56,026 bases of DNA from Deltaproteobacteria bacterium (lineage in GTDB: Bacteria > Desulfobacterota > Desulfobacteria > Desulfobacterales > SpSt-501), in NCBI GenBank assembly GCA_016219005.1, contig JACRCN010000080.1, positions 1 through 56,026 of the forward strand, given 5' to 3'. Shown here piece after piece: positions 12,617 through 27,691 of the stretch (positions within the stretch are counted from its first letter, which is position 1; each line of letters begins with the position of its first letter). The position numbers and the translations under genes are program-made. The notes beneath the pieces were generated by a model, which had not been told where the DNA came from, ran no database searches, and saw nothing but the letters and a program-made list of their open reading frames with translations.

Positions 12617-14653
12617 ATGAATTATTTGCCGTTAGTGTGTACACTTGTTGGTGCGGTCGGCGTGCTCTACGCGATCATCGTGGCCGGCATGGTCAAAAGC
12701 GCTCCGGCCGGTAACGAGCGGATGCAGCAAATTTCCGGGGCCATCGCGGAAGGCGCCATTGCCTACCTGAACCGTCAGCTGAAAAGCGTCGCCGTTACGG
12801 GCATCATTATTTTCGCCATCATGGCCGTAACCATGAAACTCTCCACGGCGATCGGGTTCCTGATCGGGGCCGTGGCTTCGTACCTGGCGGGCTACATCGG
12901 GATGCGCGTGTCGGTTATCGCCAACGTGCGCGTCGCCGAGGCGGCCAAAAAGGGTCTCAATGCAGCCCTGCAGCTGGCGTTCCGGGGCGGTTCGGTGACC
13001 GGCATGATCGTGGCCGGGCTCGCGCTGACCGCTGTGGCCGGCTATTACGCTGTCCTGGTCAACATGGGCAACAGCAGCCGCGATGCGGTGGTGGCGCTGG
13101 TGGCCCTGGGCTTCGGCGGCAGCCTGATTTCGATCTTCGCGCGGCTCGGCGGCGGCATTTTCACCAAGGGCGCGGACGTCGGCGCCGACCTGGTGGGCAA
13201 GGTCGAAGCCGGGATTCCCGAGGACGACCCGCGCAACCCGGCGGTCATCGCCGACAACGTGGGCGACAATGTCGGCGACTGCGCTGGCATGGCGGCCGAC
13301 CTGTTCGAGACCTATGCCGTCACGGCCGTTGCCGCGATGCTGCTCGGCAACCTGCTGTTCCCCAAAGCTTCCATTGCCACTGAGTTCCCGCTGGTGCTGG
13401 GCGCCATCTCCATCGTGGCCTCCATCATCTCGGTCTTCTTTGTCCGCCTGGGTAAAAACGAGTACATCATGGGCGCCCTTTACAAGGGCATGTTCGGCAG
13501 CGCCATCATCGCGGCCGTCGCCTTTTTCTTCGCCGTCCAGAACATGGTGCCGGCGCTCACCCTCGTCAGCGGCAAGCAGATTTCGTCGATGAATATTTTC
13601 CTGGCGACCCTGGTGGGGCTGATTTTAACCGTGGTCATCGTTATCATCACCGAGTATTATACCGGCAAATACGGCCCCGTGAAGGGTATTGCTCAAGCGT
13701 CCACCACCGGCCACGGCACCAACATCATCGCCGGCCTCGCCGTCAGCATGCAGTCCACCGCGGCGCCGGTTCTGGTCATCTGCCTGGCCATCGGCCTGGC
13801 GTACCATTTTGCCGGGCTTTACGGCATCGCCATGGCGGCCATGTCCATGTTGTCCATGACCGGCATGGTCATCGCCATCGACGCCTACGGTCCAATCACG
13901 GATAACGCCGGCGGCATCGCCGAGATGGCGGGGATGGACGAAAGCGTGCGCGCCATCACCGATCCGCTGGATGCGGTCGGCAACACCACCAAGGCCGTCA
14001 CCAAGGGATACGCCATCGGCTCCGCCGGGCTCGCCGCTTTGGTGCTGTTTGCTGCCTACACTCAGGAGTTCGCCTTGCTTGGCAAGGGAGCCGAATTGAG
14101 GTTTGACCTGAGCGACGTCAACGTCATCATCGGGCTGTTCATCGGCGGCCTGCTGCCGTACCTGTTTGCCTCCATCGCCATGATGGCGGTCGGCAAGGCC
14201 GGCGGCGCCGTCGTCGAGGAAGTGCGGCGTCAGTTCCGCGAAATCCCCGGGATCATGGAAGGCACCGGCAAACCCGACTATGCCGCCTGTGTCGACATCG
14301 TGACCAAGTTCGCATTGAAGGAGATGATGATTCCGGCCCTGCTGCCGGTCGTCACCCCGATCCTTGTCGGGCTGCTGCTCGGTAAGATCGCCCTGGGCGG
14401 CCTGCTGATCGGCAGCATTGTCACCGGCGTGTTCGTGGCCATCTCCATGACCACGGGTGGCGCGGCCTGGGATAACGCCAAGAAGTACATTGAAGACGGC
14501 CACCTGGGCGGCAAGGGCAGCGATTCCCACAAGGCTGCCGTCACGGGCGACACCGTCGGCGATCCGTACAAAGACACCGCCGGCCCGGCCGTCAACCCGA
14601 TGATCAAAATCCTGAACGTCGTGGCTCTGCTGATGGTACCGTTCCTGCTGTAA
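12617..14653 (+). CDS. hppA: Membrane-bound ion-translocating pyrophosphatase, K+-independent type
   Basis: 678 residues with about 15-16 membrane segments. Catalytic motifs of the family are present: [20 protein letters not shown], then [20 protein letters not shown], and C-terminal [16 protein letters not shown]. The marker motif reads GNTTKA. Lys at this position (instead of Ala in GNTTAA) is the known mark of K+-independent, H+-pumping enzymes. The protein hydrolyses cytoplasmic PPi and exports protons, recovering energy from sulfate activation and biosynthesis. A strong Shine-Dalgarno (GGGAGGAGAGG) precedes the ATG. A terminator follows. Confidence 0.96.
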
Positions 14654-14687
14654 TTTCGAACTAATCAGCGCGGTTGATCAGCTGTCC

Positions 14688-14727
14688 AAAAGGATTGGTG
14701 CCGAAAGGCACCAATCCTTTTTTTTCT
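14688..14727 (+). terminator. Intrinsic terminator of hppA
   Basis: AAAGGATTGGTGCC and GGCACCAATCCTTT form a perfect stem with a GAAA tetraloop, followed by a run of eight or more T. It closes the pth-hppA transcript. Confidence 0.95.
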
Positions 14728-14770
14728 TTCCCGCCACCTTCCGCCCCGTGTTACCTCTTGCGGGTGGCAG

Positions 14771-14799
14771 TTGACTCCCGCCCGCGAATATGCTAAAGA
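14771..14799 (+). promoter_or_regulatory. Candidate sigma-70 promoter for carD
   Basis: TTGACT (14771-14776) with TAAAGA 17 nt downstream (14794-14799), between the hppA terminator and carD. The -10 match is modest. Confidence 0.4.
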
Positions 14800-14853
14800 A
14801 GTGGCACATGTCGAGGAAACACCCCTCGGGCCCTGCCAAAACAACAAGCTGAA

Positions 14854-15417
14854 ATGAGTGGAAATATGATTGTGAAAGCACCCAAGGAAGGCGTGTCGGC
14901 GGCAAAGCCCAGGATGCGCAAGTTCCGAGTCGGCGACCTTGCCGTCTATCCGGCCCACGGGGTCGGTCAAATTCAAGCCATCGAAAGCCGCGTGGTCAAC
15001 GGCGAACACCATAATTTTTACATTCTGCGGGTGCTGGAAAACGGGATGGTTATCATGATCCCCATCAACAACGTGGAATCGGTGGGTCTGCGTTGCCTGA
15101 TCGATGCCAAGGAGGTTCCCAAGGTCTACGCCATCATGAAGACCAAGCGGGAGGTCTTGGGCGACAACCAGACCTGGAACCGCCGCTACCGCGAATACAT
15201 GGAGAAAATAAAGACCGGCTCCCTCTTCGATGTGGCCGAGGTGTTCCGCGACCTCTTCCGCCTCAAACTGACCAAGGACCTCTCCTTCGGCGAGCGCAAG
15301 CTTTACGACACCGCCCAGATTCTGCTGGTGAAGGAGCTCTCGAAGGCCAAAAAGACGGACGAGAAGACCATCCTCTCGGAAATCGAGTCCCTGTTCGTCT
15401 CCGAGGCTGCTGCCTGA
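14854..15417 (+). CDS. CarD/CdnL family transcriptional regulator
   Basis: 187 residues. The N-terminal RNA-polymerase-interacting domain is clear (FRVGDLAVYPAHGVGQI, then GMVIMIPINNVESVGLR). A helical DNA-binding half follows, with TWNRRYREYMEKIKTG, AEVFRDLFRLK, LSFGERKLYDTAQILLVKEL. This is the CdnL/CarD arrangement, a global factor that stabilises open complexes at rRNA and other promoters. ATG 14866 is an alternative start. It has its own likely promoter and is followed after 19 bp by an RluD-family gene, with which it may be co-transcribed. Confidence 0.92.
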   Translation: MSGNMIVKAPKEGVSAAKPRMRKFRVGDLAVYPAHGVGQIQAIESRVVNGEHHNFYILRVLENGMVIMIPINNVESVGLRCLIDAKEVPKVYAIMKTKREVLGDNQTWNRRYREYMEKIKTGSLFDVAEVFRDLFRLKLTKDLSFGERKLYDTAQILLVKELSKAKKTDEKTILSEIESLFVSEAAA

Positions 15418-15436
15418 CCAACCGAATTCAGCGTCC

Positions 15437-16411
15437 ATGACCCACGGCGCGGCCTTTTCCATCATTGTGGATTCTTCCGCAGCGGGCCAACGGCTGGACG
15501 TGTTCGTCGGCGCCCGCCTGCCGGGTTGCTCGCGCTCTTTCGCCGCCCAGCTCATCGCGGGCGGCAACGTCCGGGTCAACGACCGGCACCAAAAGCCGGG
15601 CCATCGTTTGAAGACCGGAGACGCCGTCACCGGCTGCATTCCGCCCCCACGGCCGGCCGGTTTTCTGCCCGAACCCATCCCCCTCGCCATCCTCTACGAA
15701 GACGAGCACATCGTTGTGATCAACAAACCGCCGGGACTGGTCGTGCACCCGGCCCCGGGCCACTATTCAGGGACCTTGGTGAACGGGCTGCTTTACCACT
15801 GCCCGGATCTCGGCGGTATCGGGTCCGAACTGCGTCCGGGGATCGTCCACCGGCTCGACAAGGACACCTCCGGCACCCTGGTGGTGGCCAAGAATGGTGC
15901 CGCCCTCGAGGAGCTCAACTCCCAGTTCAAAGCCCGCACGGTGCAGAAGACCTATATCGCGCTGGTTCATGGAGCGATGCCCGCCGCGCAGGGTACCATC
16001 CGGCTGCCCATCGGGCGGCACCCCGTGGACCGCAAGCGCATGTCGGTTGCGAGCCGCAAGACGCGGCAGGCCGAGACCGGTTGGCGGGTGCGCCGCCGCT
16101 TTACCGGTTTTACCCTCCTGGAACTCGACCTCAAGACCGGCCGCACCCACCAGATCCGCGTGCACTGCGCGGCCGTGCACCACCCCATCGTCGGCGACCC
16201 GGTCTACGGCAAACGCAACGCCTCCCGGGCTTCGCGCGACACATCGCATTCGACTGAAGTCAACGAACTTATAGCAAATATCCGCCGGCAGATGCTGCAC
16301 GCCTGGCGGATCGGGTTCGTGCACCCCGCCAGCGGTGCGGCGTTGACGTTCGAGTCGCCGCTGCCGCCGGACATGCAGGCCCTCATCGACCGGCTTGAAT
16401 GCGGGTCATGA
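15437..16411 (+). CDS. RluD-family 23S rRNA pseudouridine synthase
   Basis: 324 residues. An S4 RNA-binding domain (AGQRLDVFVGARLPGCSRS to HRLKTGDAV) is followed by the RluA/RluD catalytic domain. The active-site motif is HRLDKDTSG near residue 138, with the catalytic Asp at its fourth position. LKTGRTHQIRVH and HPIVGDPVYG are further family blocks. The domain order matches RluD, which modifies helix 69 of 23S rRNA, but paralogues RluC and RluA-like enzymes cannot be excluded by eye. The gene lies downstream of carD. Confidence 0.93.
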   Translation: MTHGAAFSIIVDSSAAGQRLDVFVGARLPGCSRSFAAQLIAGGNVRVNDRHQKPGHRLKTGDAVTGCIPPPRPAGFLPEPIPLAILYEDEHIVVINKPPGLVVHPAPGHYSGTLVNGLLYHCPDLGGIGSELRPGIVHRLDKDTSGTLVVAKNGAALEELNSQFKARTVQKTYIALVHGAMPAAQGTIRLPIGRHPVDRKRMSVASRKTRQAETGWRVRRRFTGFTLLELDLKTGRTHQIRVHCAAVHHPIVGDPVYGKRNASRASRDTSHSTEVNELIANIRRQMLHAWRIGFVHPASGAALTFESPLPPDMQALIDRLECGS

Positions 16412-16745
16412 TGGCATGGTTTCGCTGATTTTCCAGGTGCAATCGGTACGATCCCCCGCGCGACTTCGACGGGAATTTTCTATCTGGCGCCTTTTCACGG
16501 AGCCTCCCGAAGTCTTCGCCGGCAACCGATCCGGGAGAGCCCGTTCCTGGACTTGACTTCCCCTGTATTTGTTGCGAATGTAGCCGACATTAAGCCTTAA
16601 ATTAATCCGGCAGGGCTCGTCCCAGCGCCATGAAGCGGGTGAGGTATTCTCGACCCGGAATGGCGGCTTGCGGTCAGCTTTGCGCAGCTATCGAATGTCA
16701 AGACGATCGTCCCATCTCAACGCCCATCAGCGGGAGGAGGAAAGT
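16412..16745 (+). promoter_or_regulatory. 334-bp gene-free leader of the accessory cluster
   Basis: No supportable gene. TTGACT at 16553-16558 is a possible -35 without a good -10 partner. A longer frame into the transporter begins at 16668, but the GGGAGGAGGAAAGT just before 16746 fixes the start there. The gap therefore probably holds the promoter and untranslated leader of the 16746-23039 cluster. Confidence 0.35.
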
Positions 16746-18503
16746 ATGGCAACAGACACTGTAAAGTCTCAAGCGGATCCGGATTATGTCGTGATCGACA
16801 GCGGCAAGACCACTCTCAGGGATTTATACACCAAGGAAGACTGGATGGCCGTCTGGATGGGATTTGTCCTGCTCATCGTCGGTCTTTTGATTTATCTGCC
16901 GAACCCGCCTGAAAAAGCGGCCGAGATTCCCAAGTACAACACCGTGATGAAGGAAGAGGCCGCCAAGGCCCCGTTCAAGACCATCGAATGGCACAATGCC
17001 TCTTCGGCCAAGCGCGGCGTACGAGCGACCAGCCAGAATTTCGCCAAGACCATTCAAAATTTCCTGTCAGCCCCCAGCGATTGGAACACCAACCCTCTGG
17101 ACGCCCTCATCCGAACCGAGGAAACCGCCAAGGCGATGGGCGCGCCGTATAAAGAGGCGGCGGACAAGGCCAAGGCCGCTGCAGAGGCGGCCATAGCGAA
17201 AGCCAAAGCCGCCCAAGCCGCCGCCGCCGCCGCGGGCTTCAAGGACGCCAATCTCAACGCCGCGGCCGACAAGGACATCAAGGCCTGGCAGGAGGCTAAG
17301 GACAAGGCGTCCAAGGCCGATAGCAAGGTTAACGTCAAAGCTTATAACCGCATCCCCTACCTCATCGGCCTGTGCATCATGTTGGCGGTCTTTTTCGGCA
17401 TTGGCAAAGCCATCATGGGAGTCTCCTTCGGCAAATTCGTGGTGGGTTTCCCGGCCGTCTTCTTTCTCGCCATACTGGCCTACATGGCCGAAACCCAGGC
17501 CCTGATGAAATACTGGGGCTTCGGGTTCCCGCTGTGGGCCATTGTCTTCGGCCTGCTCATCAGCAACACGGTCGGCACCCCCAAGTGGATCATGCCTGCC
17601 GTCTGCACGGAATACTACATCAAGACCGGTCTCGTTTTGCTCGGCGCTGAAATCCTCTTCAACAAGATTCTCGCCATCGGCAAGCCGGGCATCTTCGTGG
17701 CCTGGATCTGCACGCCCATCACACTGATCCTGACCTACTGGTTCGGCCAGAAGATCGTCAAGATGCCTTCCAAGACCTTGAACATCACCATCTCGGCCGA
17801 CATGTCGGTCTGCGGTGTCTCTGCGGCCATTGCCACGGCTGCCGCCTGCAAGGCCAAGAAGGAGGAACTGACGCTCGCTATCGGCCTGTCCATGGTGTTC
17901 ACGGCCATCTGCATGGTGGCCCAGCCGGCCTTCGCCAAACTGGTGGGCATGCCTGAAATTCTCGCAGGGGCCTGGATGGGCAGCACGATCGACTCCACGG
18001 GTGCCGTGGCCGCGGCCGGCGCGTTCCTCGGGCAAAAAGCCCTGTACGTCGCGGCGACCATCAAGATGATCCAGAACGTGCTGATCGGCGTCGTGGCCTT
18101 CTGCGTCGCCGTGTACTGGTGCGCCAGGGTGGACAGCAAGCCCGGCGCCAGCGTGAGCTGGTGGGAAATCTGGTACCGTTTTCCGAAGTTCGTCGTCGGT
18201 TTCATCGTGGCCTCGATAGTATTTTCCATCATCGACCAGAGCGTGGGCAAGGATATGAGCTCGGTCATGATCGACCACGGGGTGCTCAGGGGCTTCACCC
18301 GCATCGCCCGCGAGTGGTTCTTCGCGCTGGCTTTCACCTGCATCGGGCTTGAGACCAACTTCAAGGAATTCGGACCTTATTTCAAGGGTGGCAAACCCAT
18401 CACCCTGTACGTGTTCGGCCAGAGCTTCCAGCTGGCCTTCACGCTCTTGATCGGCTACATCATGTTCTACATCGTTTTCCCCGAGATCACCGCGGCCATA
18501 TAG
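16746..18503 (+). CDS. YeiH/PSE-type putative sulfate exporter with an alanine-rich insert
   Basis: 585 residues from ATG 16746 (Shine-Dalgarno GGAGG 8 nt upstream). The first membrane segment is at about 33-51. A long hydrophilic insert follows (about 53-199), including a very Ala/Lys-rich helical stretch at 135-178 with AAAEAAIAKAKAAQAAAAAA. The remaining ten or so membrane segments hold family blocks such as KTGLVLLGAEILFNKI, MSVCGVSAAIATAAACKAKKEE and STIDSTGAVAAAGAFLG, matching the YeiH/UPF0324 putative sulfate exporter family. YeiH proteins are about 350 residues, so the insert is extra. The substrate is unproven; sulfate, sulfite or an organic anion is possible. First gene of a six-gene block. 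Confidence 0.82.
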   Translation: MATDTVKSQADPDYVVIDSGKTTLRDLYTKEDWMAVWMGFVLLIVGLLIYLPNPPEKAAEIPKYNTVMKEEAAKAPFKTIEWHNASSAKRGVRATSQNFAKTIQNFLSAPSDWNTNPLDALIRTEETAKAMGAPYKEAADKAKAAAEAAIAKAKAAQAAAAAAGFKDANLNAAADKDIKAWQEAKDKASKADSKVNVKAYNRIPYLIGLCIMLAVFFGIGKAIMGVSFGKFVVGFPAVFFLAILAYMAETQALMKYWGFGFPLWAIVFGLLISNTVGTPKWIMPAVCTEYYIKTGLVLLGAEILFNKILAIGKPGIFVAWICTPITLILTYWFGQKIVKMPSKTLNITISADMSVCGVSAAIATAAACKAKKEELTLAIGLSMVFTAICMVAQPAFAKLVGMPEILAGAWMGSTIDSTGAVAAAGAFLGQKALYVAATIKMIQNVLIGVVAFCVAVYWCARVDSKPGASVSWWEIWYRFPKFVVGFIVASIVFSIIDQSVGKDMSSVMIDHGVLRGFTRIAREWFFALAFTCIGLETNFKEFGPYFKGGKPITLYVFGQSFQLAFTLLIGYIMFYIVFPEITAAI

Positions 18504-18507
18504 TGGC

Positions 18508-18798
18508 ATGATCGTAAAGGACACATGCACCCTTACCCCTGCCGGCGGGGCTTCGGCCCCGTTGGCAGGGGTCAATCCCTGGTTAAAACTGATCATCGGA
18601 ATCGCCCTGATTCTGTTTTTCATGTTCGGCATCGGGACCCTGGCCCAAAGGATCCCCGGCGCACGCCACATGGCGCACGTGATCGACGAGCGCAACCTGA
18701 GAGTCACCGCCATTTATTACACGGACTTCGAGGAGCCGGCCGAAGGCTCGGAACGCATCCGCGACAGCCTCGATTACACCCCGGGCGGCAAACCCTGA
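18508..18798 (+). CDS. Small single-pass membrane protein, unknown function
   Basis: 96 residues if it starts at ATG 18508, 4 nt after the transporter stop. One hydrophobic segment (LKLIIGIALILFFMFGIGTLA) is followed by a polar tail with HMAHVIDERNLRVTAIYYTDFEEP. The first 20 codons overlap a 17-bp hairpin (18535-18572), and the Shine-Dalgarno is weak. TTG 18562 inside the hairpin is an in-frame alternative that keeps the membrane segment. I do not recognise the family. Its place directly after the exporter suggests an accessory subunit or a membrane-bound partner of the cluster (inference). Confidence 0.6.
   Translation: MIVKDTCTLTPAGGASAPLAGVNPWLKLIIGIALILFFMFGIGTLAQRIPGARHMAHVIDERNLRVTAIYYTDFEEPAEGSERIRDSLDYTPGGKP
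18535..18572 (+). other. 17-bp UUCG hairpin after the exporter gene
   Basis: ACCCCTGCCGGCGGGGC and GCCCCGTTGGCAGGGGT pair over 17 bp (two G-U pairs) around a C(TTCG)G tetraloop. No T-run follows. The hairpin lies 32 nt past the exporter stop, inside the predicted start of the next gene. It could be an mRNA-stabilising or translation-controlling element. Confidence 0.65.
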
Positions 18799-18871
18799 CC
18801 GGCATGGAGCGCAACACCGGCCCCCTGCGCAACTCCCGTGGTCGCTTTTTTATTTTGGCACCCGGACGACC

Positions 18872-19450
18872 ATGAAGGCATTAGCTCAAAAAATCGACAT
18901 CATACTGCAGCGCGAACTGGCCTTCGCCAATGCGATCGGGGCAGCCGTGTTCGAGAAGCCCAAGGTCAGCTTCTGGATGGTGCTCATCCCGATTCTCTTC
19001 GTGTATTTCATTTACCGCATGCAGAGGTTCAAGAGCGGTCGCATGAAGTTCGACGAGGAGTTCATGGCCACCCGCCGGCGTGCAATGAATGTCGCCCTTG
19101 ATGCCGTGGAAACGAACGGCCGGCCGGACATGGGTGAGGTGGCCCGTAACTCCAGCCTTCCGGAGGCGCTTCAAAAGCCTTACATCTCCTGGGTGAACGC
19201 CCTCGTCGAGTATTACATGGATCTGCTGGCCGCGGACGGCGACAGCTTCGAGTCTCTGGTCCGCGCGGCCTACCGCAACCGGACCGACTACCTGCTGACC
19301 CTCAACCGGTTGAACACGGTGGAAAAGGAGTTCTACACGGCACTCAAGCCGCATATGGGCGCCGCCGAAGGGGCGGCCGACATCATTGCCACGATTGAAT
19401 CGCAGTCCCAGCAGCTGCGCCGCGAGCTGGCCGAACAGATTTTTCGTTGA
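18872..19450 (+). CDS. Membrane-anchored protein of unknown function
   Basis: 192 residues. A short amphipathic N-terminus (AQKIDIILQRELAFANAIG) precedes one hydrophobic segment (VSFWMVLIPILFVYFIYRM, about 31-50). A soluble helical domain of about 140 residues follows, charged and without cysteines or obvious catalytic motifs. I do not recognise the family. The stop at 19448-19450 is 3 nt before the GTG of the GNAT-like/TraB gene, so they are almost surely co-transcribed. The topology suggests a scaffold or anchor for the cluster's enzymes at the inner membrane, which is only inference. Confidence 0.75.
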   Translation: MKALAQKIDIILQRELAFANAIGAAVFEKPKVSFWMVLIPILFVYFIYRMQRFKSGRMKFDEEFMATRRRAMNVALDAVETNGRPDMGEVARNSSLPEALQKPYISWVNALVEYYMDLLAADGDSFESLVRAAYRNRTDYLLTLNRLNTVEKEFYTALKPHMGAAEGAADIIATIESQSQQLRRELAEQIFR

Positions 19451-19453
19451 ACC

Positions 19454-21145
19454 GTGACCCCTTCCGATCTGAACGCGGTCTTGGAGGACGCCACCGTCCC
19501 CGAGCACTCCGCAGCTTTCATGCGGGCCATGTCGGGCGGGGAGCCGTTTCGGATCGGAGCCTACCTGTTTGTGGCTGCCCGGGGCTGGCTTCTGGCGATC
19601 GGCTATCCGCTTGCGGGCGCTGACGATCCGGGAGGGTTCGACCGGGCGCTCAGTGCCGCGCTGAACCGGACGCACGCCAGAGACGTCTGGGCCGTTGCCC
19701 CGGCCCTGCCCGAGCGGCTCCAGGCCTATCGCCGCGACCGGGACCATTATTACACGCTGCCGCTCGATGCCGTCCTGCCCGCGCGTCTGGAACGCCTGGC
19801 CGGCCGGGCGTCCTCATCGCTGCGGGTGGAGGAAGGCTGCTCCTTCACCGCGGCCCACCGGCGCCTCTGGGCCGAGTTCACCGGCCGAGTGGCCCTGTCC
19901 GCCAACGTGCGCGAGCTGTTCGCTCGAACCGAGGCCGTGCTGTCACAGGCCCCCGGTTTGTCCCTCCTGAACGCCTGGGATGCAGACGGCCACTTGGCGG
20001 CCTGCTTGCTGCTCGACTCGGCGCCGCGCCGCTTTTTCAGCTACCTCATCGGAGCCTACTCCCGCATCCACTACACGGCGCACGCCTCGGACCTGCTTTT
20101 TCTGGAGATGATCCGGGCCGCCCGGCGGCAGGGCAAGGAGTTCGTCCATCTCGGCCTGGGGGTGAACGATGGCATCCGCCGCTTCAAAACGAAGTGGGGT
20201 GGCACCCCCTCGCTGCCTTACGAGATGGCGGAGTGGCAGGAGGAGGAAAGCCTGCGCGGCGGTGTAAACGATCTCATGCGCATGCTGGCAACGATGCCCG
20301 CCGCCTCCATGTCCAAGCGCGAGTACCTGGCCAGTCTGCCACCGCAGCGGCCGTTCCGCATGCTTTGGGAGGTCACCAAGAACGGACGCCGTTCCTGGAT
20401 CGGGGGCACGGCGCACTTCTTCTGCTACAGCTTCGAGTCCTCGTTCCGGGATCTGTTCGAAAAGGTCGAAACAGTTCTCTTCGAAGGCCCGCTGGACAAG
20501 GCGAGCCTCGATCAGGTGGCCGAGGTCGGCCGCCGACCCGAGCCGGGCGTCCCGTGCCTGATTGACGTCTTGGCGGAGGAGAACATCAAGCACCTGGAAC
20601 GGGTGGTCTGCGGGCCGCGGGGCTTCTGGGCGAAGCTGTTCGGCTACACGTCGCCCCACCCGGCGGACGTGCGGGGCATTCTGTCCGAAACCCGCCACTG
20701 GATGGCGTTCTTCTCGACGTGGACGTGCTACCTGGCGCGTAAGGGCTGGACTCAATCCGTGGACCTGGAGGCCTGGCAGCTCGCCCAGGACATGGGCAGA
20801 GCCGTGCGCGGCATGGAAACCATTGCCGAGCAGATCGAAACCCTGCAGGGCATCCCCATCCCGCGCATCGTGAATTTCCTGCGGCAATGCGAACGCTGGG
20901 GGGCCTACCTCAAGCGCAACGAGCGCGCCTACCTCAAGGGCGACCTGGAGGCCATGCTGGGCACCAGCATCGAGTTTCCGACCCGCACGGAACTCGTCAT
21001 CGGCCGCCGCGACGCGCGATTCCTTGAGCGCATGCGGCCCTTCATCGAGGCGGGCGGTTGCGCCGTGTTCGTGGGCTCGGCCCACATGCTCAATCTGCGC
21101 CACCTGCTGGCCGACGCTGGTTTCAGCGTGCGGAGGTGCCGATGA
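19454..21145 (+). CDS. Fusion of a GNAT/FemAB-like acyltransferase and a TraB/GumN (Tiki-like) domain
   Basis: 563 residues from GTG 19454. The N-terminal half (1 to about 285) looks like a GNAT/FemAB-type transferase, with LAACLLLDSAPRRFFSYLIG and, at about 232-250, HLGLGVNDGIRRFKTKWGG. The C-terminal half (about 297-563) matches the TraB/PrgY/GumN superfamily: WIGGTAHFF (first GxxH, about 317), VETVLFEGP (conserved Glu) and CAVFVGSAHMLNLRHLL (second GxxH, about 540). TraB/Tiki-type proteins are proposed metal-dependent proteases acting on small peptides. The next gene repeats the transferase module. Substrates are unknown. The domain calls are by eye and an HMM search would settle them. Confidence 0.75.
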   Translation: MTPSDLNAVLEDATVPEHSAAFMRAMSGGEPFRIGAYLFVAARGWLLAIGYPLAGADDPGGFDRALSAALNRTHARDVWAVAPALPERLQAYRRDRDHYYTLPLDAVLPARLERLAGRASSSLRVEEGCSFTAAHRRLWAEFTGRVALSANVRELFARTEAVLSQAPGLSLLNAWDADGHLAACLLLDSAPRRFFSYLIGAYSRIHYTAHASDLLFLEMIRAARRQGKEFVHLGLGVNDGIRRFKTKWGGTPSLPYEMAEWQEEESLRGGVNDLMRMLATMPAASMSKREYLASLPPQRPFRMLWEVTKNGRRSWIGGTAHFFCYSFESSFRDLFEKVETVLFEGPLDKASLDQVAEVGRRPEPGVPCLIDVLAEENIKHLERVVCGPRGFWAKLFGYTSPHPADVRGILSETRHWMAFFSTWTCYLARKGWTQSVDLEAWQLAQDMGRAVRGMETIAEQIETLQGIPIPRIVNFLRQCERWGAYLKRNERAYLKGDLEAMLGTSIEFPTRTELVIGRRDARFLERMRPFIEAGGCAVFVGSAHMLNLRHLLADAGFSVRRCR

Positions 21146-21987
21146 TCGTTCCCGATCGCCTGGCCGGGGTGACCGCTGCGGCCGCCGTTCCCGAGCAGGT
21201 GGTACCTTACGCCTGCGCCGTGGCGGGCTCGAAACCGCAGCGTGTGGGTCCCTGCGTGGGGTACGCGTCCGAGGGCGAGTTCGTACTCGTGGGCTACCCT
21301 CTGCACGATCCCCGGGATACCGGCGCTATGGTCGACGCCGTGGACCAGGCACTCAAGCTCCCCAGCTTGCGCCGGATCACAGTGATCGGGTCGGTGCGGC
21401 CGCCGCAGGCACCGGCAGGATCCCCGGCGGAGGAGGATGGCTATGTTTCCGTGCCGGTGCCGCACCCTCCGCCGGCTCAGAAGCTCCGCAACCTAATGCG
21501 TCGCGCAAGACGCGAGCTTGTTATCGAGCGGGATCAAACCTGCGGCGGCGAGCATATGGCTTTGATTCAACCTTATCTCGACGGGCGGCATCTGGCGGCC
21601 GGCACGCGGCACATTTTTCGGCAGATCCCGCGCTACCTCGAAATGTCTTCCGGCAGCCTGATGCTCTCTGCGCGTTTGTCGGATGGCCGCCTGGCCGCCT
21701 TCAGCGTGGGGGAGTTCGGCTCCCTGCACACCGCCTTCTACATGTTCTGCTTTCGTCACTCCGGGCTCGCGCCGCCGGGGAGCACGGACCTTTTGCTTTC
21801 CGCGCTGCTGGAGGAGGCGCGCGAGCGCGGCCAGGTGCGCATGAATTTGGGGCTGGGGGTCAATGCGGGTGTTCGTTTCTTCAAGCGCAAGTGGGGAGCC
21901 GAGCCCTTTCTGCCGTATGTGCAGGTGAGTTGGGAGCCGGCAGCACCTAAGATGTTCCGACGGCTTCGGGGTTTTTTCGGTGGCTGA
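21142..21987 (+). CDS. GNAT/FemAB-like acyltransferase, paralogue of the preceding module
   Basis: 281 residues from ATG 21142, which overlaps the preceding TGA as ATGA and has GGAGG 6 nt upstream. The longer frame from 21058 is not needed. The C-terminal half reads LAAFSVGEFGSLHTAFYMFC, then MNLGLGVNAGVRFFKRKWGA near residues 234-252. That is the same signature, at the same position, as in the upstream fusion protein (HLGLGVNDGIRRFKTKWGG). The two are paralogues, one with and one without the TraB domain. Likely acyl- or aminoacyl-transfer to an amine, with unknown substrate. Confidence 0.7.
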   Translation: MIVPDRLAGVTAAAAVPEQVVPYACAVAGSKPQRVGPCVGYASEGEFVLVGYPLHDPRDTGAMVDAVDQALKLPSLRRITVIGSVRPPQAPAGSPAEEDGYVSVPVPHPPPAQKLRNLMRRARRELVIERDQTCGGEHMALIQPYLDGRHLAAGTRHIFRQIPRYLEMSSGSLMLSARLSDGRLAAFSVGEFGSLHTAFYMFCFRHSGLAPPGSTDLLLSALLEEARERGQVRMNLGLGVNAGVRFFKRKWGAEPFLPYVQVSWEPAAPKMFRRLRGFFGG

Positions 21988-22004
21988 CAGGAGAGGCGTT
22001 CGTC

Positions 22005-23039
22005 ATGAAGAACACTGCGGGTGGAGAATTCAGGCAACCGGGGTTCTGGGAGACCATCCGCGAGGCGTTCCTCGGCGTGCGCCGGATGTTGGATTGCATC
22101 CAGGTGGAAGTCACCTCCCACTGTCCGGGCCGCTGCAGCTACTGTCCCCACACCACCCGGCGCGACCAGTGGCTTGCGCGCGACATGGACATGGGCACCT
22201 TCGAGCGCCTGTGGCCACTGATGCGCAAAGCAAGCCGTGTGCACCTGCAGGGCTGGGGCGAACCGCTGCTTCACTCCGGCTTTTTCGACATGGCCGCACT
22301 GGCACGCAAGGCCGGCTGCGCCGTGTCCACCACCACCTGCGGGTTGTGCATGAACGGGGACATCGCCCGGAAGCTTGCCGACAGCGGGATCGACATCGTG
22401 GCCTTTTCGCTTGCCGGCACCGATGCCACCAGCAACGCCGCGCGCCACGGAGTCGATTTCGACCGTGTGTACGAAGCCATCGGCCTGCTTCAAGCCGTAC
22501 GCCGCTCGGTCATGGCCGTGCACCTGGAAATCCATTTCGCCTACCTGATGCTGGCCTCCGACATAGAGGCTGTGCGAGGCTTGCCCAGCCTGGCGCACCG
22601 GCTGGGCGTGCACGCCGCGGTTGTCAGCACCCTGGACTACATTGCCGAGCCCGGTTTCGAGGCCGAGGCGTTCATGCCCCATGAAGCCGGGAAACTCGCC
22701 CGGGCGGCGGCGGTACTGGGCGAAGCCGAGGCCGAGGCGAAACGTCTGGGTGTCGACTTCCACTGGTCGCTGCCCCGGCCCGACGCTTCAGGCACGCGGT
22801 GCCGGGAAAACGTCGCCCGCTCCCTTTACGTTGCCGCCGACGGGTCGGTCGCCCCCTGCGTTTATCTGAATGTGCCCATTGACTGCCTCTATCCCGACCG
22901 CCGGGTCTTCGGCAACGTCAACGAGACGGAGCCGCTCGAAATCTGGGAAAGCGCAGCCTTCCGCAGCTTCCGGGACGGCTTGCCCTCCGGTGACGCGGAC
23001 CCGGCGTGCCGGATGTGTCCCAAGCGGTTCATGATCTAA
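22005..23039 (+). CDS. Radical SAM protein with SPASM-like C-terminal domain
   Basis: 344 residues. After VEVTSHCPGRCSYCPHTTRR (CX3CX2C, the SAM-binding 4Fe-4S cluster near residue 43) comes a TIM-barrel core with HLQGWGEPLLHSGFF. The C-terminus has at least five more cysteines (CRENVAR, VAPCVYLN, IDCLYP, then DPACRMCPKRF) and the SPASM-type phrase GNVNETEPLEIWES. SPASM enzymes bear auxiliary clusters and often modify peptides or small proteins. AGGAGAGG precedes the ATG, 17 nt after the upstream stop. Last gene of the cluster. No obvious precursor peptide with a leader is seen next to it. Confidence 0.88.
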   Translation: MKNTAGGEFRQPGFWETIREAFLGVRRMLDCIQVEVTSHCPGRCSYCPHTTRRDQWLARDMDMGTFERLWPLMRKASRVHLQGWGEPLLHSGFFDMAALARKAGCAVSTTTCGLCMNGDIARKLADSGIDIVAFSLAGTDATSNAARHGVDFDRVYEAIGLLQAVRRSVMAVHLEIHFAYLMLASDIEAVRGLPSLAHRLGVHAAVVSTLDYIAEPGFEAEAFMPHEAGKLARAAAVLGEAEAEAKRLGVDFHWSLPRPDASGTRCRENVARSLYVAADGSVAPCVYLNVPIDCLYPDRRVFGNVNETEPLEIWESAAFRSFRDGLPSGDADPACRMCPKRFMI

Positions 23040-23149
23040 CAGGCAGCTGAGAAACCGCGTCTGTAATCGTGATCCAGCGTTGTGCGGCATTTGTAAATGT
23101 TCAGCTGAACAAGGCTCGAAGCTGACAGCTCAAAGGTAAAGCAAAAAGA

Positions 23150-23174
23150 AAAACGCCGCGACAAGCGGCGTTTT
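23150..23174. terminator. Bidirectional terminator between the radical SAM gene and rnfA
   Basis: AAAACGCCGC and GCGGCGTTTT form a 10-bp stem around GACAA, with T-rich flanks on both strands (AAAAAG before, TTTTC after). It can end the plus-strand accessory cluster and the minus-strand rnf operon. Confidence 0.85.
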
Positions 23175-23187
23175 CAGGGAAACGCAG

Positions 23188-23211
23188 AAAAGGGCGCGCA
23201 GCGCCCTTTTT
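23188..23211 (-). terminator. rnf operon terminator
   Basis: AAAGGGCGC and GCGCCCTTT form a stem directly after the rnfA stop (23211-23213), with T-rich flanks. It forms a double terminator with 23150-23174. Confidence 0.75.
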
Positions 23212-23789
23212 TACACCCAGCCCTTGAAGGCGAAGAAGGTCAGGGAGAGCATGCCGGCCGTGACCAGGCCGATGGCCGTGTCCTGGAAGGGTTTGGGCGT
23301 TCGGGCGAGCAGGATGCGTTCGCGCACTCCGGCGAAGAGGACCAGCGCCAAGCCGAAGCCGACCGGGTAGGCAAAGGAGGAGATCAGCATCTGGAAGAAG
23401 TTGTAATCTTCCTGGATGTTGATGAGGCAGACGCCGAGCACGGCGCAGTTGGTGGTGATGAGGGGCAGGTAGATGCCGAGGCCGGTGTAGAGCACCGGGA
23501 TGCTCTTCTTGAGGAACATCTCGACGAACTGCACCAGGGCGGCGATGACCAGGATGAAGGCGATGGTGCGCAGGTACTTCAGGTTGAAGGGCACCAGTAC
23601 GTACAGTTCGACCAGCCACGTGATGATCCCGGCCAGGACGAGCACGAACACCACCGCCATGGCCATGCCGGTGGCGGTCTCCATTTTCTTGGAGGTTCCC
23701 AGGAAGGGGCAGTTCCCCAGGTACTGGATCAGCAGGATGTTGTTGATCAGCACACAGCTGAAGAAAAGGACGGCAAGGTCACCGAACAT
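23211..23789 (-). CDS. rnfA: Ion-translocating ferredoxin oxidoreductase subunit A
   Basis: 192 residues, six membrane helices. LFFSCVLINNILLIQYLGNCPFLGTSKK and NCAVLGVCLINI are the NqrE/RnfA blocks. The cysteines in the half-helices bind an intramembrane [2Fe-2S] cluster with RnfE. Last gene of the operon rnfB-cyt-rnfC-D-G-E-A. 9 nt separate it from rnfE. It mediates transmembrane electron transfer coupled to Na+ or H+ export. Confidence 0.97.
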   Translation of the reverse strand: MFGDLAVLFFSCVLINNILLIQYLGNCPFLGTSKKMETATGMAMAVVFVLVLAGIITWLVELYVLVPFNLKYLRTIAFILVIAALVQFVEMFLKKSIPVLYTGLGIYLPLITTNCAVLGVCLINIQEDYNFFQMLISSFAYPVGFGLALVLFAGVRERILLARTPKPFQDTAIGLVTAGMLSLTFFAFKGWV

Positions 23790-23798
23790 GGCGATCTC

Positions 23799-24404
23799 CT
23801 ATTTTTTCCCGAGGATGTTCATGAGCCCCAGCATCAGCCCCAGGCAGATGAAGGCCCCCGGCGCTTCCACCAGGAACCGGAACGGTTCGAATGCCGGCCC
23901 GAACAGGGTGATCGGGGTTTCATAAATGGTGATGGCGCCGGTGGCGATGACTTGCCGGAACGTGGCCAGCACGGACAGCGCGATCGTGTAGCCGAGGCCG
24001 CGGCCGAGCCCGTCCAGCGCGGAGCGCACGATGCTGTTCTTGCTGGCGAAGGCTTCGGCGCGTCCCATGGGGATGCAGTTTACGACGATGAGCGGTATGA
24101 AGATCCCGAGCTTCAGGAACAGAGCATAGGTGTAAGCCTGCATGACCAGTTCCACCACGATGACAAACGTGGCGATGACCACGATGAAGGCGACGATGCG
24201 CACCTTGGACGGGATGATTTTGCGCAGGGCCGAAATGAGGATATTCGAAAACGCCAGGACGAAGGTCACGGCGACCCCCATCCCGTAGGCGTTTTCCAGG
24301 GTGTTGGTGATCGCGAGCGTCGGGCAGAGCCCGAGCACCAGGCGAAACGGCGGAATCTCCGCCCAGAGGCCTTTGGTAAATTCCTGAACAAGGGTCTTGG
24401 CCAT
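23799..24404 (-). CDS. rnfE: Ion-translocating ferredoxin oxidoreductase subunit E
   Basis: 201 residues, six membrane helices. FTKGLWAEIPPFRLVLGLCP and FIPLIVVNCIPMGRAEAFAS are characteristic of NqrD/RnfE, the inverted-topology partner of RnfA. The conserved cysteines (CPT and NCIPMGR) are in place. It sits in the inner membrane, 10 nt after the rnfG stop. Confidence 0.97.
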   Translation of the reverse strand: MAKTLVQEFTKGLWAEIPPFRLVLGLCPTLAITNTLENAYGMGVAVTFVLAFSNILISALRKIIPSKVRIVAFIVVIATFVIVVELVMQAYTYALFLKLGIFIPLIVVNCIPMGRAEAFASKNSIVRSALDGLGRGLGYTIALSVLATFRQVIATGAITIYETPITLFGPAFEPFRFLVEAPGAFICLGLMLGLMNILGKK

Positions 24405-24414
24405 ATGTGCCTTC

Positions 24415-25008
24415 CTATTTTCGGAGCTCTTTCAGTTTCTGCTCGATCTGGGGCTTCAGCCGCTCATAGATGGTGAAGGCGTTGGACACCCCGCCGGCGA
24501 CCGCGCGGGAGGTGATGGTAGCGCCGCTGATAGCGTTGATCGACCCTCCGTCCTGGGTGACTTTGGCGGGGCTGGACACGGAGGCCCCCTTGAACTGGGC
24601 GGCGAAGGCAGGGTCGGTCTTGGCCTTCGCCCCCAGTCCGGGCGTTTCCGAGTGGGTCGTGACTTCGATCCCGATGACTTTGCCGGTCTGGGTGTCAACG
24701 GCGACGACGAGCCCGACCTCCCCCTTGTAGCCCTTGCCGGCGGCCTCCAGAGCCACCCCCCGCGGGGAGCCCTCGAGCTCGCCGACGAAGAAGGTCCGCA
24801 CGATCTGCCCGTCCTTCAGCTGGAAGCGCGTGGCGATGGGATCGTTGGTCGCGTCCTTGAATACGCCGCGTACGGAAGGCCCCTTGACGAATTCCAGCAC
24901 CTGCTGGTCGATCCGCTCCTGAGTGCTTGCCCGCAGGGACGCCAGCAGGCCGCCGGAGGCCAGGCTGATGCCCGTCAGTACCACCACCATGTTGATGAGT
25001 TCACGCAT
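24415..25008 (-). CDS. rnfG: Ion-translocating ferredoxin oxidoreductase subunit G (FMN-binding)
   Basis: 197 residues. A single N-terminal membrane helix (MVVLTGISLASGGLLASL) anchors a periplasmic domain. The flavinylation motif SGATITS (about 155-165, in INAISGATITSRAVAGG) carries the Thr to which FMN is covalently linked by ApbE-type transferases. ETPGLGAKAKTDPAF is another family block. No apbE gene is in this operon, so the transferase must be encoded elsewhere. Confidence 0.95.
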   Translation of the reverse strand: MRELINMVVVLTGISLASGGLLASLRASTQERIDQQVLEFVKGPSVRGVFKDATNDPIATRFQLKDGQIVRTFFVGELEGSPRGVALEAAGKGYKGEVGLVVAVDTQTGKVIGIEVTTHSETPGLGAKAKTDPAFAAQFKGASVSSPAKVTQDGGSINAISGATITSRAVAGGVSNAFTIYERLKPQIEQKLKELRK

Positions 25009-25011
25009 GAC

Positions 25012-25971
25012 TTACACGACCTTTCCAAGCGCCTTGGGCCTGATTTTGTCAACGAGCGGCTGGATCAGGTTCCCGACCAGCACGGCATACGGCAGCCCTT
25101 CGGCGAAGACGCCGATGTCGCGGATGAACACGACGACACTGCCGATCACGGCGCCGTAGATGAGCATGGGCAGGAAATTCACCGGCGAGGAGGGGTCCTC
25201 CGGTGCCAGGAAAAACGCGCCGATCAGGGTGTAGCCGGTGAGAAGGTGAAAAGCCGGGGAGGCGAACTTGGCCGGGTCCACCTGGTTGAAGATGAACGCC
25301 GTTAGCGCCACTCCCGCCAACATACTGAGCGTGATCTCCCAGCGGATGACCCCCCGCACGAGCAGGTAGACCCCGCCGAGGATGAGACCCAGGCCGAACG
25401 TGCAGCCGATGCCGCCGATCTGCCGGCCCAGGAGCAGGTCCCCGAGGCTGACATCGCCGATGGCGGCCGTTCCGAACGCCTTGACGGCGGTGAGGTGATA
25501 CACCGCGGGGAAATCGAACGGGTAGTTCACCAGGGCGGCGTCGAAGTCCATGCGCCCCTTCCAGGCCAGCATCAATATGGCGAGTGCCACCGCCACCGGG
25601 TTGAACGGGTTGGCGCCGATGCCGCCGTAGATCTGGCGAGCCACCACGACGGCGAGGAAGGTCCCGGTGAGGATGCCCCACCATGGCATGGAGGCGGGCA
25701 GCATCATGCCGAGCAACAGCCCGATGACGGCAGCCGTTCCGTCGCCGACCGAGACGGGGCGGCCGGCGACACGGGTGAACGCGAGCTCCCACAGGACGGC
25801 CGAGGATACCGACAGGGCGAGCACGCCGAGCGCGGATACCCCGTACTGATAGACGCCGAAGAGCGCGGCCGGAAGGGCCGCCAGGAAGATATCACGGCTG
25901 CGGTCGGTCACCCGGTTGCAGTTGTGCCAGAACGGGGCGTGGGAGACGATGAGTTTTTGATGCTCAGGCAT
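25012..25971 (-). CDS. rnfD: Ion-translocating ferredoxin oxidoreductase subunit D
   Basis: 319 residues from the ATG at 25971 (protein MPEHQKLIVSHAPFWHN). The longer frame upstream is a shadow of rnfC. The start overlaps the rnfC end by 8 nt. It has about nine membrane helices with GGIGANPFNPVAVALAILML and the C-terminal FFLAPEDPSSPV, matching NqrB/RnfD. The family carries covalently bound FMN and forms part of the ion path. Confidence 0.95.
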   Translation of the reverse strand: MPEHQKLIVSHAPFWHNCNRVTDRSRDIFLAALPAALFGVYQYGVSALGVLALSVSSAVLWELAFTRVAGRPVSVGDGTAAVIGLLLGMMLPASMPWWGILTGTFLAVVVARQIYGGIGANPFNPVAVALAILMLAWKGRMDFDAALVNYPFDFPAVYHLTAVKAFGTAAIGDVSLGDLLLGRQIGGIGCTFGLGLILGGVYLLVRGVIRWEITLSMLAGVALTAFIFNQVDPAKFASPAFHLLTGYTLIGAFFLAPEDPSSPVNFLPMLIYGAVIGSVVVFIRDIGVFAEGLPYAVLVGNLIQPLVDKIRPKALGKVV

Positions 25972-27238
25972 TGGCGTCCTCCATAGGGCGAACCCGCGCC
26001 AGCTCGTGTTTGGCCAGGGTGATGTATTGCAGGATCGGGATCTTCGACACGCAGACGTAGGCGCACAGGCCGCATCCCACGCACGAATCGAGATCGTAGG
26101 ATTCGGCTCCGTCCTCGTACTTTCCGGCTTCCAGGTAGCGTACGAGGAGGTTGATCTGCATCCGCGCAGGGCAAACCCGCACGCAATCTCCGCAGTTGAC
26201 GCAGGGGTAGTCGGAGACGGAGGAGGCACTCGCCGCATCCAGCACCATTACGGCGTCCGTGCCGGGCCGAACCGGCTGGTCCAGGGAATAGGCAGCTGCT
26301 CCGCGCATGGGGCCGCCGAGCACGACGCGGTCGCCCGCTACGACGGCAATTCCGAACCGCTCGAAAATGTCGCCGACCCGCGTCCCGATGGGGGTTTCCA
26401 CCAACCGGGCGGTCCCGTCCCGGGCCACGAGGGTCAGGACCTTGGTGACGGGGATCCGGCCGGTCTCGAAGGCAACGCCGATGGCCGCCACGGCTTCGGC
26501 GCACATGAAGCAGAACCCGAGGTCTTCAGGGGTTTGTCCGGCCGGGACTTCCCGGCCGAAGACCTGGTGCATGACCAGGTGGGGGTGTGCCGAAGGGTAA
26601 ACGGGGTCGACAGCCATCACGCGGCCGTCGATATGGCCGTGGCCCTGGACGGCTTCCCGCAGGGTGAGGATGACAACGTCTTCGATGCCGGTCGCCTGCT
26701 TAAGCACCTGGATGCCGCTCGTTATCTCATGGGAACGGGCGCGCAGCACGTGCTGCTGGGTGAACACGAGCAGGTCCTCGTCGACGCCGCAGACGACCAG
26801 CGTTTTGACCGGCCGCTTGGGATTGCACAATCGCTCCAATGGCGGGAGCCCAGGTGCGGCCGCGAGGAAGTGGCGCAGGGTTTCCGGGGACGGTTCCCGG
26901 CGGGCGCTCGCGAACTGATCGTCGCGGGCTTTTATGGAGGAGGCAGTGATCGTGATGGCGGTCTCGTCGCGGCCGAAATGGCCGGCAAAGGGCGCTAAGG
27001 CCGTAACCGTGCCGGTCACCGGTGCGATGACGTAATCCGCACCCCCATAGAGGGATAGCCTCTGTCCGGTCTTAACGGTGTCCCCGGTTTTCAGGGCCGC
27101 CGGAGTCCGGCGCTTTGAGGGGCCGGGGTGCAGGAGGGTAACCGATGTTCCGGCCGGAACGACCTCCGGCCCCGCGAGTCGGGGGGGCGGGGTGGCGTAA
27201 TGCAGACCGGGTTTGCCAAGGCCAAAGAATGTTTTCAT
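25964..27238 (-). CDS. rnfC: Ion-translocating ferredoxin oxidoreductase subunit C
   Basis: 424 residues from the ATG at 27238 (MKTFFGLGKPGLHYATPP), preceded by GAAGGG. Twelve further upstream codons are probably not translated. The RnfC N-terminal barrel and the SLBB-like region are followed by two [4Fe-4S] motifs, CVNCGDCVRVCPARMQINLL and CVGCGLCAYVCVSKIP. It is the cytoplasmic subunit that exchanges electrons with NAD(H) in classical Rnf. Here RnfB carries a second pyridine-nucleotide module, so the electron route may differ. Confidence 0.95.
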   Translation of the reverse strand: MKTFFGLGKPGLHYATPPPRLAGPEVVPAGTSVTLLHPGPSKRRTPAALKTGDTVKTGQRLSLYGGADYVIAPVTGTVTALAPFAGHFGRDETAITITASSIKARDDQFASARREPSPETLRHFLAAAPGLPPLERLCNPKRPVKTLVVCGVDEDLLVFTQQHVLRARSHEITSGIQVLKQATGIEDVVILTLREAVQGHGHIDGRVMAVDPVYPSAHPHLVMHQVFGREVPAGQTPEDLGFCFMCAEAVAAIGVAFETGRIPVTKVLTLVARDGTARLVETPIGTRVGDIFERFGIAVVAGDRVVLGGPMRGAAAYSLDQPVRPGTDAVMVLDAASASSVSDYPCVNCGDCVRVCPARMQINLLVRYLEAGKYEDGAESYDLDSCVGCGLCAYVCVSKIPILQYITLAKHELARVRPMEDANA

Positions 27239-27293
27239 CTCAGGATTCACCCTTCTGAACAGGACGGTAAACAAACCCTCAACCGGCCAAGCC

Positions 27294-27683
27294 TCAGAAC
27301 ATTACGTGGCACCGTGTGCACTCCACCGGGCCCGCCCCGTATTCCGTGTGGCAGCCGATGCACTGCTGGTGCAGCGCGTCGGAACGCTTGGGGACGTCCG
27401 CGTCGCCCTTCTCCGCATCGTGGCATTCCGTGCAGGATGAGGCCTGGTCGTACTCGTCCTTGGATAGCGTGTGGTGGCACTCCCCGCAGGTAAGGCTGTA
27501 GCCTGTGTCCGCTGCGTGCCGGGCGTGGTCGAAGAGCGCCTTGCCGGCGACGGACTGAAAAACGATCCGGGCCGGCGGTTTAGGTGGCGTGACCCCGAAC
27601 GCCGCATAGCTCACCACCGCGATCAGCAGCAGGCAGACGGCCAGCCCATACACCCGTTTCAGCTCGATTCGTGAAAACATCAT
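27294..27683 (-). CDS. Membrane-anchored tetraheme cytochrome c of the Rnf operon
   Basis: 129 residues. An uncleaved-looking hydrophobic N-terminus (VYGLAVCLLLIAVVSYAAFG, about 11-30) anchors or exports the protein. Four heme-binding CXXCH motifs lie at 66-70 (CGECH), 84-88 (CTECH), 108-112 (CIGCH) and 122-126 (CTRCH). His53, His56, His71 and His105 are candidate distal ligands. The pattern fits the class III (c3/c7-like) cytochromes known next to rnf in sulfate reducers and methanogens. It lies between rnfB and rnfC and likely exchanges electrons between Rnf and periplasmic carriers. Confidence 0.93.
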   Translation of the reverse strand: MMFSRIELKRVYGLAVCLLLIAVVSYAAFGVTPPKPPARIVFQSVAGKALFDHARHAADTGYSLTCGECHHTLSKDEYDQASSCTECHDAEKGDADVPKRSDALHQQCIGCHTEYGAGPVECTRCHVMF

Positions 27684-27691
27684 GCGTCCTC

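Follow-up and report, generated by a model that had tools for sequence, protein, structure and literature searches.

Which function is served by the six closely spaced genes at positions 16,746 to 23,039 of contig JACRCN010000080.1 (Deltaproteobacteria bacterium, Desulfobacterales, assembly GCA_016219005.1), of which the whole analysed stretch of 56,026 nucleotides is called the window in the following? The original prediction had read them as one undescribed system for the modification, trimming and export or membrane display of a peptide or an amine-containing small molecule. Based on our analysis, the cluster belongs to a modular gene set, composed of an exporter module (module A) and an enzyme module (module B), which is apparently undescribed, and we interpret it, with a probability of about 0.5, as an accessory system of dissimilatory sulfite metabolism. 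This metabolic link is beyond the reach of a reading of the sequence alone.

All six open reading frames (ORFs) were found where they had been placed, on the plus strand and with spacings of 4, 73, 3, −4 and 17 nucleotides. Searches against Pfam and NCBIfam gave the gene order PSE (putative sulfate exporter), TM96, HY, a GNAT1-TraB fusion (P0004), GNAT2 and a radical SAM protein (Table 1). The predicted anion exporter with its Ala-rich insert, the Tiki/TraB domain of gene 4, the paralogy of the two GNAT-like enzymes and a terminator-like structure downstream were all borne out.

Table 1. Coordinates of the cluster genes and their features within the window.
Feature	Position	Strand	Evidence
PSE/YeiH-type anion exporter, 585 aa	16746..18503	+	PF03601 (Cons_hypoth698/YeiH-like), 6.4e-44
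Ala-rich insert of exporter, about residues 135-200	17148..17345	+	alignment A2
TM96, small one-helix protein, apparent PSE partner	18508..18798	+	recurrence at PSE loci and shared sequence features
HY, NCBIfam NF038143 'HYxxLL'	18872..19450	+	6.5e-61; helical, one hydrophobic segment (by eye)
GNAT1-TraB fusion (P0004), 563 aa	19454..21145	+	Acetyltransf_6, 1.8e-5; TraB_PrgY_gumN, 1.5e-30
TraB GTAH motif	20405..20416	+	invariant, 13 sequences of A6
TraB Glu of EGPLD	20483-20485	+	invariant, 13 sequences of A6
TraB His of GxxH	21083-21085	+	invariant, 13 sequences of A6
GNAT2, 281 aa	21142..21987	+	paralogue of the GNAT1 domain, E 6.4e-28
Putative twitch radical SAM protein, 344 aa	22005..23039	+	Radical_SAM and SPASM (PF13186)
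CxxxCxxC radical SAM motif (C40, C44, C47)	22122..22145	+	invariant 18/18 in A7
Auxiliary-cluster Cys (C266-x13-G-x4-C285 and C335-x2-C338)	22800..23018	+	invariant 18/18 in A7
Terminator-like stem-loop, 11 pairs	23149-23175	scored on −	between convergent radical SAM gene and rnfA

Relatives of P0004 were detected in 16/116 genomes of an order sample (E ≤ 1e-3), 18/291 of a class sample (E ≤ 1e-15) and 22/247 of a phylum sample (E ≤ 1e-12). NF038143 occurs in 20/116 order-sample and 51/291 class-sample genomes, among the latter in 15 of the 18 P0004 carriers. The module-B order GNAT1-TraB-GNAT2-radical SAM is conserved across several families of the phylum, with GNAT1 and TraB fused at nine loci (L029, L031, L033, L128, L130, L151, L158, L245 of Bilophila and L246 of Desulfovibrio piger; L and G numbers denote loci and genomes) and with unfused genes at L140, L142, L145, L149, L155 and L157; in distant relatives, GNAT1 and TraB are separate neighbouring genes. 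In Desulfovibrio sp. OH1186_COT-070, GNAT2 and the radical SAM protein share a single 628-aa frame (L247:6322-8208), whose GNAT part was found by tblastn only, Pfam recognising the radical SAM part only. Module B is incomplete at L131 (no radical SAM gene beside GNAT2) and L032 (no GNAT2). The gene maps were built with a purpose-made caller based on amino-acid composition, a non-standard gene finder, and start positions are approximate; weak P0004 matches in G043, G051, G065, G112 and G454 were left out of the module loci, and radical SAM loci were examined at 16 of 22 places.

Module A consists of PSE, TM96 and HY and is widespread on its own. The best 80 of at least 539 confirmed PSE loci in named records contained a TM96 match in 56 cases, HY in 24, a radical SAM match in 11 (some weak) and a GNAT match in one (weak), and most of the TM96-bearing loci were without a module-B match. 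TM96 had been proposed as a possible substrate of the system. Because its relatives at PSE loci mostly occur without a module-B match, a role as peptide substrate is unlikely, and TM96 looks like a partner of the transporter instead. It stays below every family cut-off in Pfam and NCBIfam; its relatives have in common, as judged by eye, a hydrophobic helix and a stretch resembling YYT(D/E).

The exporter scores 150.5 bits on PF03601 (gathering score 24.5) and 73.8 bits on the YeiH subfamily model TIGR00698, far below the cut-off of 232.6. It thus shares the membrane domain of the YeiH/PSE exporters but differs from them by this low subfamily score, the long Ala-rich insert and the linked TM96 and HY. 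The insert is common to the long (~585 aa) PSEs of alignment A2, and the short PSEs of L036, L040, L042 and L014 are without it. HY is a clear member of NF038143 (205.8 bits, curated cut-off 50), a family model that gives no function; its AlphaFold 2 model is predicted to be all-helical (mean local confidence, pLDDT, 89.4), and a PDB search returned no match at E ≤ 0.001. The PSE profile likewise yielded no convincing relative in the PDB. Another PSE relative, distant at 28 percent, is encoded in the window's own genome (G000:C9:140108-140917). Among 117 loci surveyed, a sensor-kinase-like family occurred at 30 and a response-regulator-like family at 26, lying directly upstream of PSE at L101, L112, L126 and L162; at L162, Pfam identifies the pair as a kinase plus a sigma-54 regulator.

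How firmly are the two modules tied to each other? The 41 genomes with GNAT/TraB genes represent 19 family groups, and a radical SAM match lay in the same stretch in 29 of these genomes. PSE or HY was located near module-B genes in 18/41 genomes and 11/19 family groups (including G480 and G430, with loci L160 and L161), compared to a rough chance expectation of about 1 percent (~15 kb in a genome of 4 Mb, 1-3 loci); the association exceeds chance. In the examined stretches of the remaining 23/41 carriers, neither PSE nor HY was present. In another family group, 6.8 kb at L156 hold a radical SAM gene, one HY, GNAT2 and GNAT1-TraB, together with a 102-aa ORF with an HY-like start, a TM96 match that is weak and, where the contig ends, a piece of PSE. 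At L036, L040 and L042, the order PSE-HY-HY-GNAT2-HY (inverted)-radical SAM adjoins rnf, with GNAT1-TraB elsewhere.

The prediction of a six-gene system therefore stands in part. The set recurs, with its genes grouped in other lineages as well, and the module-B order is kept in several families, whereas the six in a row are not constant. Scattering in related genomes, named beforehand as the result that would speak against a system, was partly observed: PSE-HY and GNAT1TraB-GNAT2 lie at two separate places in four congeners (G030, G090, G254, G272), so that the arrangement of the window is one among several. In a tree of 42 radical SAM proteins (internal stop codons in pieces replaced by X), 16 had only the enzymes nearby, 12 had both modules, 9 only PSE/HY and 5 neither, with interleaved contexts; these shares come from a biased sample, because most loci were chosen for carrying the same families.

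Next, we compared the distribution of module B with that of dsrA. In the phylum sample, dsrA was present in 122/247 genomes, namely in 20/22 carriers of P0004 and in 102/225 others (Fisher p 2.7e-5, kinship ignored), the carrier G535 being counted from half-length matches below cut-off. Seventeen of 20 further carriers had dsrA as well, including all of those of good quality (12/12). Moreover, GNAT2, the radical SAM gene and PSE adjoin dsr genes in three genomes from two family groups. At L160, the order is GNAT2-rSAM-PSE-nifU-nifS-dsrA-dsrB-dsrD-dsrN-dsrC-dsrM-dsrK, where rSAM is the radical SAM gene; here, dsrA, dsrB and dsrC score above NCBIfam cut-offs, dsrN is CobB-like, nifU and nifS are below cut-offs, and dsrD, dsrM and dsrK were named by eye, the latter two with general Pfam domains. 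L161 starts in the same way and reaches the contig end after dsrA. At L162, the dsr genes have a two-component system, a C_GCAxxG protein, PSE, the radical SAM gene and GNAT2 as neighbours, and TraB and GNAT1 come next on this contig (L146). In G030 and G090, about 17 kb separate PSE from dsrA.

Sulfur transport genes occur at further loci. YedE-TusA flanks module B in two lineages (L145, L245), halves of YedE do so in four congeners, and TauE lies directly upstream of module B in D. piger. For the exporter family itself, PMC12880088 reports that Salmonella YeiH is required for resistance to sulfite (stress), and PSE proteins are argued to be possible sulfite exporters in PMC11582611.

Several observations weigh against the assignment to sulfite metabolism. 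Five carriers gave no dsrA match (G400, G454, G248, G289, G078), three of them with a completeness of 84 (G248), 79 (G289) and 65 (G078) percent. Conversely, 102/122 dsrA-bearing genomes of the phylum sample had no P0004 match at E ≤ 1e-12, and module B is therefore not a core Dsr factor. Records carrying the names Clostridium saudiense (here together with TM96) and Saprospiraceae, organisms that are not known as sulfidogens, contain PSE as well, and a P0004 relative was absent from both PSE-bearing genomes of this type that were tested (n=2). YedE or TauE neighbours were seen at a small number of loci, and the four congeners among them share common ancestry. Sulfite as the transported substrate is taken from a relative that is distant, given the TIGR00698 score of the exporter. 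The separation of the modules in four congeners belongs here as well.

The same holds for DsrC, which we considered as a candidate target bearing a module-specific residue and rejected as support for the sulfite assignment. Of 80 genomes searched, 78 had a DsrC-family match (none in G031 and G399) and 76 could be aligned, G262 and G478 having weak paralogues only. No alignment column separated the 33 carriers from the 43 non-carriers. The strongest one, column 61, showed a shift in frequency only (Lys in 6/33 carriers vs 30/43 non-carriers, p 8.6e-6, uncorrected and with kinship ignored). Within mixed families, the number of separating columns was 0 in f112 (2 carriers vs 6 non-carriers), 2 in f87 (1 vs 4), 5 in f93 (1 vs 1), 6 in f125 (3 vs 2) and 13 in f144 (1 vs 2), with no change apparent that was common to several of these families. 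DsrC may still be a substrate of the enzymes. In this case, module B would modify a protein of the Dsr pathway or a sulfur carrier (DsrC, TusA or DsrAB), as could be indicated by dsrC at the same locus (L160) and by TusA next to module B at L145 and L245; considering that the TusA adjacency is limited to two lineages and that no DsrC position splits the two groups, although a universally conserved residue could serve, this explanation is unlikely. No paper on DsrC acylation was found by title in the open-licence literature.

In order to narrow down the chemistry of module B, we examined its enzymes one by one. The TraB part of gene 4 matches PF01963 and carries the invariant GTAH, Glu and GxxH positions of the 13 aligned sequences, in agreement with the TIKI family (TraB/PrgY/GumN); according to PMC6254334, His/Glu residues of this type are catalytic in TIKI and erythromycin-esterase enzymes. 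It differs from that family in being fused to or adjoining GNAT, usually followed by GNAT2. Of 27 GNAT relatives, 11 match LPG_synthase_C (PF09924) at E ≤ 0.01 (best 9.4e-6) and 8 match Acetyltransf_6; one relative exceeds the LPG_synthase_C cut-off, and GNAT2 of the window reaches 19.8 bits on LPG_synthase_C (4.7e-4; cut-off 27.5). Neither the GNAT nor the TraB profile found a convincing relative in the PDB, and an AlphaFold 2 model of GNAT2 built from two sequences (pLDDT 43.9) was discarded. Near GNAT2, a gene for an alpha/beta hydrolase occurs at L036 (by Pfam) as well as at L026, L138 and L139 (by similarity or eye).

Gene 6 had been described as a SPASM-type, presumably peptide-modifying radical SAM enzyme. 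The radical SAM assignment holds, and PF13186 is indeed matched. A complete SPASM domain has a seven-Cys pattern for two auxiliary clusters, and despite this match gene 6 lacks the Cys set for both. Because only four C-terminal Cys are invariant among the 18 sequences of A7, with no further conserved one beyond these, gene 6 is predicted to be a twitch enzyme with one auxiliary cluster rather than a full SPASM protein. Its best PDB match is the peptide enzyme PqqE, with BtrN also matched over residues 27-91. The nearest NCBIfam models are TIGR04311 (rSAM_Geo_metal, 3.8e-36) and TIGR04317 (W_rSAM_matur, 2.1e-30), yet its 125 and 106 bits compare with cut-offs of 400 and 380. PMC9012708 describes BtrN as a twitch enzyme of aminocyclitol oxidation with a four-Cys auxiliary cluster of the kind predicted for gene 6; compared to BtrN and MoaA, however, overall similarity is low and relatives of gene 6 carry fusions to GNAT or to a short-chain dehydrogenase/reductase (SDR) domain. 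The latter lies N-terminal to the radical SAM part at L042 (Pfam). Longer radical SAM proteins (513-628 aa) are encoded at L042, L040, L014 and L139, of which L042 was the one scanned, and in the congeners with L128, L029 and L031, the gene after the radical SAM gene encodes a glycosyltransferase of family 2 that is related to mannosylglycerate synthase. A role in defence was dropped: a PADLOC scan of five of the proteins (TM96 left out) gave only weak viperin matches, by the radical SAM protein.

Taken as an accessory system of sulfite metabolism, the cluster could operate as follows. Module A would export a sulfur oxyanion, most likely sulfite and possibly sulfate, from the cytoplasm via PSE, with TM96 as its small partner and HY as a membrane-tethered helical scaffold. 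Module B would act as a single enzyme assembly, in which the twitch radical SAM enzyme (SDR-fused in some lineages) would oxidise an amine- or amino-acid-type substrate, the two GNATs would acylate or aminoacylate it and the TraB hydrolase would cut an amide or ester, releasing or removing the product. This product may aid the handling of sulfite, for instance by carrying sulfur, by acting as a scavenger or signal, or by modifying a transporter. A small amine- or amino-acid-type substrate is plausible because of the TraB His/Glu residues, the BtrN-like twitch Cys and the LPG_synthase_C and Acetyltransf_6 matches of the GNATs, and it would fit no worse than a peptide. Gene order, fusions, conserved catalytic residues, the co-occurrence with dsrA and the adjacency to dsr or sulfur-transporter genes in some genomes were seen directly. 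The sulfur link is supported; we infer the chemistry, the transport substrate, the sequence of reactions and the compound formed. Every individual chemistry for module B is unlikely when taken by itself. This includes the doubtful proposal that it makes a new amine- or amino-acid-derived carrier or scavenger of sulfite or reduced sulfur in a subset of sulfite-respiring bacteria, for which PSE, TauE and YedE would be interchangeable membrane partners.

Could the enzymes act on lipids or peptides instead? Resembling the C-terminal domain of phosphatidylglycerol lysyltransferase, the GNATs might modify lipids or aminoacyl-lipids, with TraB as the matching hydrolase. The LPG_synthase_C matches given above and the one relative above the cut-off point in this direction; the Acetyltransf_6 matches of other relatives, the low score of GNAT2 of the window and the lack of a PDB relative do not, and the radical SAM/SDR proteins and the dsr link would be left unexplained, which makes this explanation quite improbable. 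In a system resembling ribosomally synthesized and post-translationally modified peptides, the radical SAM enzyme would modify a peptide, TraB would trim it and the exporter would display or export it. The match to PqqE and the fact that certain TIKI proteins are proteases (PMC6254334) are consistent with this. On the other hand, we saw no gene for a short precursor in the maps, which cover ORFs of about 50 aa and up and were not complemented by a dedicated search for smaller ones, TM96 appears to act as a partner of PSE, and both the four-Cys twitch and the fusion of a related protein to SDR weaken the case for a peptide-modifying enzyme; we regard a peptide system as very unlikely. Least probable of all, two unrelated modules may have met by chance, module B serving another pathway common to sulfate reducers, which the four congeners with separate modules and the 23 carriers without PSE or HY would suit, as opposed to the frequency of the association and the occurrence of radical SAM proteins with either module.

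Comparing our results to previous work, we found no described system that matched, and the view that the cluster is not assignable to a known pathway apparently remains valid for the open-licence literature. No work combining PSE, TraB and radical SAM was found there, none linking the 'putative sulfate exporter family' with Desulfovibrio, and no mention of NF038143/HYxxLL by name.

In the window, the cluster is framed (12617-29788) by hppA-carD-rluD upstream and a convergent rnf operon downstream (hppA by Pfam, the others mostly by eye). This frame recurs, complete or partial, at L036, L040, L042, L021 and L133, and some genomes contain a CaCA antiporter (Na_Ca_ex) in addition. The RnfB-like protein of the window (27692-29788) combines an FeS domain with Fer4_20 and pyridine nucleotide-disulphide oxidoreductase domains, a fusion that is, to our knowledge, unusual for RnfB. 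The plus strand showed no promoter-like site, and a structured RNA leader was rejected, no Rfam family reaching its gathering score within 16350-23250.

Overall, a module of four activities that occurs mostly in dsr-bearing bacteria and, in two family groups, partly beside dsrAB seems to be an unnamed piece of dissimilatory sulfite metabolism. Desulfovibrio piger and a metagenome-assembled genome of Bilophila are among its named carriers. Both are gut organisms, in which the handling of sulfite and the output of sulfide are medically relevant.

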